Below are positions 14,681-17,125 of a stretch of 64,000 nucleotides of DNA, piece by piece. A model generated the notes under the pieces. It was not told where the DNA came from. It did not search any database and saw nothing but the letters and a program-made list of their open reading frames with translations. Source of the stretch: Haloprofundus halobius (GTDB lineage Archaea > Halobacteriota > Halobacteria > Halobacteriales > Haloferacaceae); contig NZ_CP083666.1 of the NCBI RefSeq assembly GCF_020097835.1, positions 2,232,001 through 2,296,000 of the forward strand, in the 5' to 3' direction. The position numbers were made by a program, and so were the translations under genes. The first letter of the stretch is position 1, and the number at the start of each line of letters is the position of its first letter.

Positions 14681-14703
14681 AGTCCGCTCTCCCCGATTTG
14701 AAC
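14681..14703 (-). repeat. Detached copy of the tRNA-Tyr 3' end (attachment-site-like)
   Basis: 23 bases at 14681-14703 (beginning AGTCCGCTCTCCCCGATTTG) are identical to 14817-14839, which cover the last 20 nt of the tRNA-Tyr gene and 3 nt beyond it. Spacing is 136 bp. Duplicated tRNA 3' ends are what site-specific integration leaves behind. Confidence 0.85.
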
Positions 14704-14819
14704 TCAGTCAGACGAGGCGCCCACACCGTTCGCGCGCTGCGACTCACCTGCTCAACTCGGACCGAGGAATCCGTCACATTCAGCACCGGTTCGCTGCGCT
14801 CTCGGTACTGAAGTTCAGT

Positions 14820-14892
14820 CCGCTCTCCCCGATTTGAACGGGGGGCAAGCCGATCTACAGTCGGCTGCTCTGCCAGGCTGAGCTAAGAGCGG
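14820..14892 (-). tRNA. tRNA-Tyr (anticodon GTA)
   Basis: 73-nt cloverleaf on the minus strand: 7-bp acceptor CCGCTCT/AGAGCGG, D arm with AGCTCAG...GAGC, anticodon stem GCCGA/TCGGC enclosing CTGTAGA (anticodon GTA), T arm CCCCG TTCAAAT CGGGG. No CCA encoded and no intron visible. The 3' end is duplicated 136 bp away at 14681-14703. Confidence 0.93.
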
Positions 14893-15008: not shown

Positions 15009-15524
15009 ATGAGTAAAGTGACGTTCCGCGCGGACGACGACCTCGTCGAGCGGTTGGAGGCGTTAGAGGCCTCCAAGAGCGAGGTTATGCGCGAGGCGCT
15101 TCGTGCGTACCTCGACGCGTCGGAACGTGACGACGGTGCAGCGGAGACGACGCCAGCATCGGCTCGCGAGGCGGTCGACCGTCTCGTCCGCGAGCGCGTC
15201 GACGAACTCGTCGACGAACGACTCCGCGAAGTCGAGAACCGCCGCCCGCAGGACGTAAACGTCAACATCAGTCTCGACGGTGCGGGAGGCGACGACTCGG
15301 AGGCGCGTAAGACAACGCTCGACGACTCGGAGCGGACCGACGAGAGATCGTGCAATCAGTGCGGCGAAGAACTGTCCGATGACCAGATGTACTGCCCGAA
15401 TTGCGGCGAGAAGGCGTCCCGTCGGCTGTTCTGCGACTGCGGCGACGAGGTGCGCTCGGACTGGGCGTTCTGTCCGGGGTGCGGTCGGCGGACCCCGGCG
15501 GCCGACGTGCTCGAACGTCGTTGA
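15009..15524 (+). CDS. cdrL: CdrL-like regulator: ribbon-helix-helix plus double zinc ribbon
   Basis: 171 residues. Residues 1-45 form a ribbon-helix-helix DNA-binding domain (VTFRADDDLVERLEALEASKSEVMREAL). A charged helical linker follows (VDRLVRERVDELVDERL). The C-terminus carries four Cys pairs: CNQC, CPNC, FCDC and CPGC, a double zinc ribbon. Haloarchaeal CdrL is known as the long RHH partner encoded beside cdrS-ftsZ2 and acting on that promoter. Position and architecture match. The gene ends 209 bp before cdrS. Confidence 0.85.
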   Translation: MSKVTFRADDDLVERLEALEASKSEVMREALRAYLDASERDDGAAETTPASAREAVDRLVRERVDELVDERLREVENRRPQDVNVNISLDGAGGDDSEARKTTLDDSERTDERSCNQCGEELSDDQMYCPNCGEKASRRLFCDCGDEVRSDWAFCPGCGRRTPAADVLERR

Positions 15525-15563: not shown

Positions 15564-15718
15564 GTCTTACAGCCGCCGTTACATTTATATCCTATCGCTC
15601 TGTGCTTACGTTCGCGTAAGACGGTCGTCTTACGTTCCGAAGCCGGCGGGGCTAAGTCGCCCTCTTCGTGCGGTTTCGGCGCGTCAGACGACATCGGGCA
15701 TGTGCCCGACCGTCTTAC
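15564..15718 (+). promoter_or_regulatory. cdrS-ftsZ2 promoter with repeated GTCTTAC boxes
   Basis: TATA-like TTTATAT at 15584-15590. GTCTTAC occurs at 15564-15570, 15627-15633 and 15712-15718, and inverted at 15616-15622. Together 15615-15634 form CGTAAGAC-GGTC-GTCTTACG, a perfect 8-bp inverted repeat; CTTACG-TTCG-CGTAAG (15605-15620) overlaps it. The repeat falls at and just after the expected transcription start, as a repressor or autoregulator site would. Confidence 0.6.
15694..15709 (+). promoter_or_regulatory. Hairpin/inverted repeat ahead of cdrS
   Basis: TCGGGCA-TG-TGCCCGA, 7-bp arms with a 2-nt spacer, ending 24 nt before the cdrS ATG. Could be an operator half-turn or an mRNA hairpin in the leader. 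Confidence 0.4.
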
Positions 15719-15733
15719 CGGGGGAATGCAAAT

Positions 15734-15922
15734 ATGGAGCGTGTGACACTACGAATTCCGAAGCAGCAGATCGAGGAAGTCGAACAGATGGTGGAAACGG
15801 GAGAGTTCCCGAACCGAAGCGAAGCCATCCGTTCGGCCGTCCGCGAGATGCTCAACGAACAGGTCGAGGAACGCGACGCGAAACGCCCCGAGCGCGCCAA
15901 GCGCAGCTGGGCGAAGGTGTAA
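15734..15922 (+). CDS. cdrS: CdrS, short ribbon-helix-helix cell-division regulator
   Basis: 62-residue single-domain ribbon-helix-helix protein: [20 protein letters not shown] then the helix-turn [17 protein letters not shown]. In haloarchaea CdrS is established as the regulator co-transcribed with and controlling ftsZ2, with broader effects on division genes. The stop is 3 nt before the ftsZ2 ATG, so the pair is co-translated. The basic tail ([13 protein letters not shown]) is typical. ATG 15734 sits after AAAT, with a long regulated leader upstream. Confidence 0.93.
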
Positions 15923-15925
15923 TCG

Positions 15926-17125
15926 ATGCAAGATATCGTTCAAGACGCACTCGAGAACGCCGAAGCCGAGCAGCGCGATATGGAGGCGCAGAGCGACGAC
16001 GACGACGATTTCGGCGAACCCCGTATCGTCATCGTCGGTTGCGGTGGTGCCGGTAACAACACCATCAACCGTCTCTACAACATCGGCGTCGAGGGTGCCG
16101 ACACCATCGCCATAAACACCGACAAACAGCACCTGAAGATGATCGAGGCCGACACGAAGATTCTCGTCGGCAAGTCGCTGACCTCCGGCCTCGGGGCCGG
16201 CGGTGACCCTTCGATGGGTGAGCGGGCGACCGAGATGGCCCAGGGGACCATCAAAGAGGTTCTCGGCAAGGCCGACCTCGTGTTCGTCACGGCAGGGATG
16301 GGCGGCGGTACCGGGACCGGTGCGGCCCCCGTCGTCGCCAAGATCGCCAAAGAGCAGGGTGCCATCGTCGTCGGCATGGTCTCGACGCCGTTCAACGTCG
16401 AGCGCGCCCGAACGGTGAAAGCCGAGGAAGGGCTGGAGAAACTCCGCAACGAGGCGGACTCCATCATCGTCCTCGACAACAACCGGTTGCTCGACTACGT
16501 CCCGAACCTCCCGATCGGGAAGGCGTTCTCGGTGATGGACCAGATCATCGCCGAGACGGTGAAGGGGATCTCGGAGACCATCACCCAGCCGTCGCTCATC
16601 AACCTCGACTACGCCGACATGTCCACCATCATGAACCAGGGTGGCGTCGCCGTGATGCTGGTCGGTGAGACGCAGGACAAAAACAAGACCGAAGAGGTGG
16701 TCCGCGACGCGATGAACCACCCGCTTCTCGACGTGGACTACCGTGGCGCGTCCGGCGGTCTCGTCCATATCACCGGCGGTCCCGACCTCACGCTCAAGGA
16801 GGCCGAGGGCATCGCCGACAACATCACCGAACGCCTCGAAGCGAGCGCCAACGTCATCTGGGGCGCTCGCATCCAAGAGGAGTACAAAGGCAAGGTCCGC
16901 GTCATGGCCATCATGACCGGCGTCCAGAGCGCGCAGGTGCTCGGCCCGACGACGCAGAAGCAGGCCGACCGCTCGCGCGCCAGCCTCGACGGGAGTTCGA
17001 GTTCGGAGTTCGAGACGAACCAGAACCGCCAGCACCGGACGAACCCCGGTGCGAGTGGGTCGTGGCAGTCCGACGGCGGACGCGACGAGGTCGAACGGAA
17101 CAACGGCCTCGACGTCATTCGCTGA
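15926..17125 (+). CDS. ftsZ2: Cell-division tubulin homologue FtsZ2
   Basis: GTPase that polymerises at mid-cell and drives constriction in archaea; acts with FtsZ1 and SepF. 399 residues. An acidic N-terminal tail (~30 residues) precedes [17 protein letters not shown]. The GTP signature [10 protein letters not shown] is near residue 130, and the T7 loop [11 protein letters not shown] is near residue 225. A poorly conserved C-terminal tail after ~residue 350 ends [14 protein letters not shown], probably the partner-binding peptide. The cdrS linkage and the MQDIVQDAL start favour FtsZ2 over FtsZ1. Convergent with ncsA. Confidence 0.95.

Follow-up and report, generated by a model that had tools for sequence, protein, structure and literature searches.

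A candidate RHH operator of GTCTTAC boxes at the cdrS-ftsZ2 promoter of haloarchaea

The operator described here is a one-site, order-wide array of GTCTTAC boxes at the promoter of cdrS-ftsZ2, and our comparison of genomes confirms that these boxes are real and far beyond chance. We consider it probable, at a level well short of certainty, that they are the recognition sites of an RHH regulator acting at this promoter, for which we infer CdrL as the most likely protein. The control of division genes in FtsZ archaea is largely open, and our results offer a base-level candidate operator, set apart from the CdrS type of site, for the one target that has been reported for CdrL. The sequence, layout, conservation and uniqueness of the boxes, the selection on a further box inside cdrL, and the covariation in the mRNA leader were computed directly. 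The positions below refer to the window, i.e., the whole 64-kb stretch of DNA that was analysed.

cdrL: 15009-15524, plus strand; open reading frame with N-terminal RHH, CdrL_M middle region and double zinc ribbon
cdrL-internal box: 15307-15313, minus strand; reads CGT-AAG-ACA (Arg-Lys-Thr)
Box A, GTCTTAC: 15564-15570, plus strand; upstream of BRE/TATA
BRE/TATA promoter element: 15577-15590, plus strand; TATA conserved in 82 genomes
Box B, left half of the repeat: 15616-15622, minus strand; spans the predicted start site and is the 5' arm of the predicted RNA helix P1
Box C, right half of the repeat: 15627-15633, plus strand; 5' strand of the predicted RNA helix P2
Variable stem-loop between boxes C and D: 15634-15682, plus strand; predicted inner part of P2, from arm pairing
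Box D, degenerate here (GTCAGAC on the plus strand): 15683-15689, minus strand; 3' strand of predicted P2
Hairpin P3 between boxes D and E: 15690-15711, plus strand; predicted from arm-pairing permutation and the fold of the leader
Box E, GTCTTAC: 15712-15718, plus strand; 3' arm of predicted P1, immediately preceding the ribosome-binding site
GGGGG, likely ribosome-binding site: 15720-15724, plus strand; conserved in the leader alignment
cdrS, small RHH regulator: 15734-15922, plus strand; open reading frame, RHH_1 above cut-off
ftsZ2: 15926-17125, plus strand; open reading frame with Tubulin and FtsZ_C domains

Upstream of these genes, a 23-bp exact repeat (14681-14703 and 14817-14839, 136 bp apart) comprises the 3' end of a tRNA-Tyr gene (14818-14892, minus strand) and resembles a trace of integration at a tRNA.

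Sequence, conservation and layout of the boxes

The first-pass annotation of this DNA had listed four GTCTTAC heptamers, one of them inverted, within 155 bp, and these were found at exactly the expected positions (15564-15570, 15627-15633 and 15712-15718 on the plus strand, 15616-15622 on the minus strand). The list was correct as far as it went but incomplete, with a fifth copy inside cdrL (15307-15313, minus strand) and the degenerate box D having been missed. The 64-kb window contains five GTCTTAC copies in total, all of them at the cdrL-cdrS locus, while shuffled windows of this length contain a mean of 3.9 copies, which are scattered; the occurrence of four copies within 155 bp has a chance probability of about 1e-7 for the 64-kb window, as estimated with a Poisson distribution from that shuffle mean. 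The inverted repeat with a 4-nt spacer, proposed to be centred on about 15625, is located at 15615-15634 (CGTAAGAC-GGTC-GTCTTACG). Its previous description as an 8-bp repeat needs one correction, since the conserved length of the arms is 7 bp: the outer left C is kept, whereas the outer right base is A in 76 of 82 genomes.

In the whole 3.95-Mb genome, the pattern GTAAGAC-N0-25-GTCTTAC has a single match, the cdrS-ftsZ2 repeat, and the genome scan for further repeats at division genes, suggested in the first-pass annotation, thus returned cdrS as its sole hit. Among 118 related genomes, 98 contain GTAAGAC-N3-5-GTCTTAC, each in one copy except for one genome with two, and a reversed control pattern has no match in any of the 118. 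The second operator of the exceptional genome (G029) was rejected, because this genome contains two near-identical cdrL-cdrS-ftsZ2 loci (L040 and L129), one of which has broken frames and is located close to the end of a contig; the duplication is probably due to assembly redundancy.

In a sample of the phylum, 78 of the 81 genomes from within the order contain the repeat vs. 3 of the 312 from outside it, and the latter matches can be ascribed to chance, because the control pattern gives 10 matches in the same 312 genomes. Public genomes, scanned for CGTAAGAC-N4-GTCTTACA, point in the same direction. Of the at least 80 loci listed, to which these counts refer, at least 74 are haloarchaeal; in 72 of the 74 listed haloarchaeal loci, cdrS directly follows the repeat, with its start codon 86-150 bp downstream, the locus ends cutting off the remaining two, and six non-haloarchaeal loci among the matches listed belong to unrelated bacteria. 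Species of Haloferax and Halobacterium are among those 72 loci, and therefore the genera for which ChIP data have been published share the layout.

The alignment of cdrS-ftsZ2 upstream regions from relatives, which had been proposed as a check, revealed conserved boxes, with all 14 bases of the repeat invariant in the 82 of 82 aligned genomes that have the N4 spacer and with variable flanks. One might ascribe the boxes to chance or to the general conservation of promoters, as conserved BRE/TATA elements are usual in halophiles and are seen at cdrS as well. However, an exact 14-base repeat that is kept throughout the order at one site per genome between variable flanks, with no matches of the control pattern, argues strongly against this explanation, which is refuted by the counts in relatives, the phylum sample and the public-genome scan and has a practically negligible probability.

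The TATA element is located about 29 bp upstream of the repeat and is conserved across the 82 genomes, so that, by the spacing typical of archaeal TATA elements, the transcription start site is predicted near 15613-15616, at the left edge of the repeat. The distance from box B to box C is 11 bp in 84 of 106 genomes. Box A precedes box B by 51-53 bp in 89 of 100 genomes (52 bp in the genome analysed here) and by 62-65 bp in the other 11, i.e., by about five or six helical turns, with no distances of 54-61 bp among them, and none of the 26 substitutions found in box A lies outside positions 3-5, the outer GT...AC being intact throughout. Box D, near -52 from the start codon, is exact (GTAAGAC) in 51 of 106 genomes and has one mismatch in 17, and box E, near -22, is exact in 94 of 106. 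The site thus shows two traits of RHH operators, namely, short pseudo-symmetric boxes repeated about one helical turn apart and a location in a promoter beside RHH genes (both cdrL and cdrS match RHH_1).

Candidate binders of the boxes

The proposal that the repeat is an RHH operator of cdrS-ftsZ2 with CdrL as the best candidate is supported by the unique site per genome and by a single reproducible ChIP-seq site of CdrL upstream of cdrS. Published ChIP-seq of CdrL in Halobacterium salinarum, with which the first-pass annotation had suggested a comparison, has its sole reproducible site upstream of cdrS-ftsZ2 (PMC7439475), and Halobacterium relatives carry the boxes. The site was published as a region, its text giving neither a motif nor summit coordinates, and the cdrL deletion described in that work also had second-site mutations (PMC7439475). 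The same note had also extended the operator to a whole division regulon. The idea of a regulon-wide box was rejected, since the repeat is unique in each genome and found at cdrS, and ftsZ1 carries GTCNGAC-N4-GTCNGAC instead.

With CdrL as the binder, each GT-NNN-AC heptamer, a pseudo-palindrome, could be read by one RHH dimer. At the predicted start site, two dimers would occupy boxes B and C, 11 bp or one helical turn apart. Box A, about five turns farther upstream and on the same side of the helix, would take up another dimer, with BRE/TATA in between; the box inside cdrL would serve as an auxiliary site. The expected effect, and hence the presumed direction of regulation, would be repression, with cdrS-ftsZ2 transcription limited either by occlusion or by a local nucleoprotein complex.

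CdrL itself matches Pfam RHH_1, CdrL_M and DZR above cut-off, and K3, T5 and R7 of its RHH strand are invariant in an alignment of 29 sequences. An exact GTAAGAC is present in 64 of 96 cdrL genes, in a linker that is otherwise variable, and the reverse orientation is found in none of the 96. In nearly all carriers this box is read as Arg-Lys-Thr. The Arg codon at Arg-Lys-Thr is CGT in 76 of 78 cases, whereas CGT accounts for 292 of 1744 Arg codons in the remainder of these genes (p 4e-53); with one gene taken per 75% cluster, it is CGT in 58 of 59 cases, and the Thr codon is never ACC or ACT; therefore, selection acts here on the DNA (or RNA) sequence and not on the protein alone. Autoregulation through GTCTTAC at the cdrL promoter was rejected, as exact boxes within 300 bp upstream of the gene occur in just 10 of 97 genomes.

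Certain haloarchaeal lineages without CdrL, which the first-pass annotation had overlooked, keep the operator. The exact repeat is present in 8 of 13 CdrL-less genomes vs. 92 of 97 genomes with CdrL. The eight (G019, G042, G059, G074, G082, G107, G095 and G106) are well assembled and represent at least four genera, and a profile search for CdrL in them gave only weak zinc-ribbon or RHH fragments. Although the repeat is confined to the class that has CdrL, it is not restricted to genomes in which CdrL is present, and because CdrL-less genomes keep it exactly, CdrL cannot be the sole reason for its conservation. The assumption of CdrL as the only binder is weakened by these lineages, in which CdrS is the obvious candidate. 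The apparent loss of cdrL in well-assembled haloarchaea of four genera (L114-L119, L109 and L110) is contrary to the published statement that cdrL is present in all sequenced Halobacteria. In three further CdrL-less genomes of the same order, of 0.9-1.1 Mb (L106, L107 and L108), a single GTAAGAC and a single GTCTTAC are present at the cdrS promoter without forming an intact pair, which possibly represents an early-branching state.

CdrS, however, appears to use a different sequence. Its 18 ChIP-seq sites in Haloferax include ftsZ1 and do not include the cdrS promoter (PMC8406309), so this part of the published ChIP data did not bear out CdrS as a binder of the boxes in Haloferax. In most of 20 genomes, GTCNGAC-N4-GTCNGAC, exact or nearly so, precedes TATA in the ftsZ1 promoter; the assignment of this pattern as the CdrS site is our reading of these promoters and not the published logo. 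The genome analysed here has four exact copies, at ftsZ1, at a gene for a DUF7139 membrane protein, at an RPA-like gene (RPA-like by our reading, with no Pfam match) and at one further place. The copy upstream of the DUF7139 gene (L163; contig 1, 1985387) lies about 16 kb from ftsZ1, and this gene may be a counterpart of HVO_0739, which is strongly down on cdrS repression in Haloferax; another copy lies upstream of the RPA-like gene (L164; contig 1, 2577048). Boxes A, B, C and E are GTCTTAC/GTAAGAC and not GTCNGAC, and only box D fits the latter, in this genus. The CdrS sites and the cdrS operator thus agree in the length of their heptamers and in the 11-bp register and differ in sequence, which points to CdrL for GTCTTAC.

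We also weighed the possibility that CdrS binds the operator as an autoregulator, with the site inherited from an ancestral cdrS promoter and CdrL joining or competing as a later haloarchaeal partner. Consistent with this are, besides the boxes kept in CdrL-less lineages and the CdrS-type GTCAGAC of box D in this genus, the K/R-x-T-x-R strand pattern common to CdrS and CdrL and the promoters of outgroup cdrS genes. In 14 non-haloarchaeal relatives without CdrL, the 150 nt upstream of cdrS contain 34 boxes of a wider family (GTCNKAC and related, e.g., GTCWGAC, GTCATAC and GTCGTAC) vs. 1.1 in shuffles that preserve base composition only; for the most part, they are direct repeats downstream of TATA at distances of 11, 22 or 33 bp, i.e., in the same register. 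Yet none of the 34 is GTCTTAC, even though the N-terminus of CdrS is almost unchanged, and this, together with the absence of the cdrS promoter from the 18 Haloferax sites and the GTCNGAC pair at the CdrS target ftsZ1, makes autoregulation by CdrS a doubtful, if serious, alternative. The outgroup arrays suggest, at the level of sequence, that the haloarchaeal operator may be a specialised descendant of ancestral cdrS box arrays.

In many haloarchaea (e.g., L047, L057 and L025), a CdrS-type pair also immediately precedes the cdrL promoter, namely, at up to two mismatches in 53 of 94 genomes vs. 0.4% in shuffles, and is absent from this position in the genus analysed here. It suggests a possible feedback loop between CdrS and CdrL.

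The mRNA leader of cdrS-ftsZ2

Boxes B-E would be transcribed as well, as parts of a leader that extends to the ribosome-binding site, in which B may pair with E (helix P1) and C with D (helix P2), a structure missing from the first-pass annotation. The fold with B:E and C:D pairs, a C-D stem and a D-E hairpin is the minimum-energy one in 66 of 81 predicted leaders, and 75 of 81 favour B:E with C:D over the local B:C with D:E, by a mean of 6 kcal/mol. Since the inner stem was not aligned correctly when all leaders were put into one multiple alignment, covariation was assessed by permutation of the arms and in a subset of leaders matched for length. Arms paired better within than across genomes, with z of -8.8 to -10.2 for the C-D stem, -7.2 for the D-E hairpin and -4.8 for the extension of P1, compared with -0.6 in two controls, and the covariation score in an alignment of 28 sequences was 0.207 vs. 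0.128 after shuffling and 0.067-0.091 after sliding. In 68 of 81 leaders, the sense strand exceeds the antisense strand in stability, with an excess in the C-D stem beyond that expected from composition. Pairing is thus kept through sequence change in the stems outside the boxes; for the heptamers, which hardly vary, pairing is not provable by covariation. A covariance-model search was left out of the structural evidence, since it scored the boxes on both strands, and a search of Rfam with the leader gave no match up to E = 1.

In Haloferax, a bicistronic mRNA of about 1,500 nt agrees with a leader of about 120 nt, and a monocistronic band of about 250 nt is shorter than expected. Ribosome occupancy of the cdrS-ftsZ2 operon lags behind its mRNA level in Halobacterium Ribo-seq (PMC8303175), which fits a role of the leader, without proving it. 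The structured leader is probably a second, post-transcriptional layer of control, and such a leader on the operon of an essential division regulator is apparently undescribed in the open-access literature.

These results could also mean that the boxes are mainly an RNA element, i.e., that a three-way junction of P1, P2 and P3 controls translation or stability of the cdrS-ftsZ2 mRNA, with DNA binding being secondary. The predicted folds and their preference over local pairing, the covarying outer stems (z of -7 to -10), the strand difference and the post-transcriptional control suggested by Ribo-seq (PMC8303175) are in its favour, and, with regard to the alternating orientation of boxes B-E, it is an explanation no worse than protein binding. 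It is, however, quite improbable in view of box A upstream of the promoter and the box inside cdrL, both outside the leader, of heptamers that are near-invariant instead of covarying, of outgroup direct repeats unable to pair in this way, and of the missing Rfam match. That the heptamers are read twice, as an RHH operator in DNA and as P1/P2 helices in mRNA, by two regulators or by the same one (CdrL, with its RHH and zinc ribbon), is unlikely as well; if true, it would tie together the transcription and translation of an archaeal division tubulin.

Comparison with known systems

The candidate CdrL operator resembles the CdrS site of Haloferax volcanii (PMC8406309) in its heptamers 11 bp apart, the adjoining BRE/TATA, its place in the same division network and its presumed RHH binder. 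The CdrS site, however, as read here at ftsZ1, is GTCNGAC, lies upstream of the promoter and serves several targets, among which the cdrS promoter was not published (PMC8406309), whereas the cdrS operator is GTCTTAC, lies over the predicted start site and has one target. With the CdrL ChIP-seq site of Halobacterium salinarum (PMC7439475) it shares the promoter and the single occurrence per genome. That site is a published region only; the motif and its layout are proposed here.

Among other RHH proteins, NikR, which was among the PDB matches and has a similar RHH strand, binds in E. coli the operator GTATGA-N16-TCATAC. Its half-sites are of the GT..AC type, one base away from GTAAGAC/GTCTTAC, but their spacing is 16 and they are bound by a nickel-dependent tetramer, in contrast to the spacing of 4 in the cdrS operator. 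In the operator of Arc, half-sites are 11 bp apart, and two RHH dimers lie side by side about one helical turn from each other, as we propose for the cdrS boxes; Arc differs in its box sequence, in being a phage repressor and in having no known leader RNA. Finally, operons of ribosomal proteins have autogenous mRNA leaders, which the cdrS leader resembles in its predicted structure beside the ribosome-binding site of the regulator's own operon. Unlike those leaders, it has no Rfam match, and its predicted helices consist of the same heptamers that occur as DNA boxes outside the leader.
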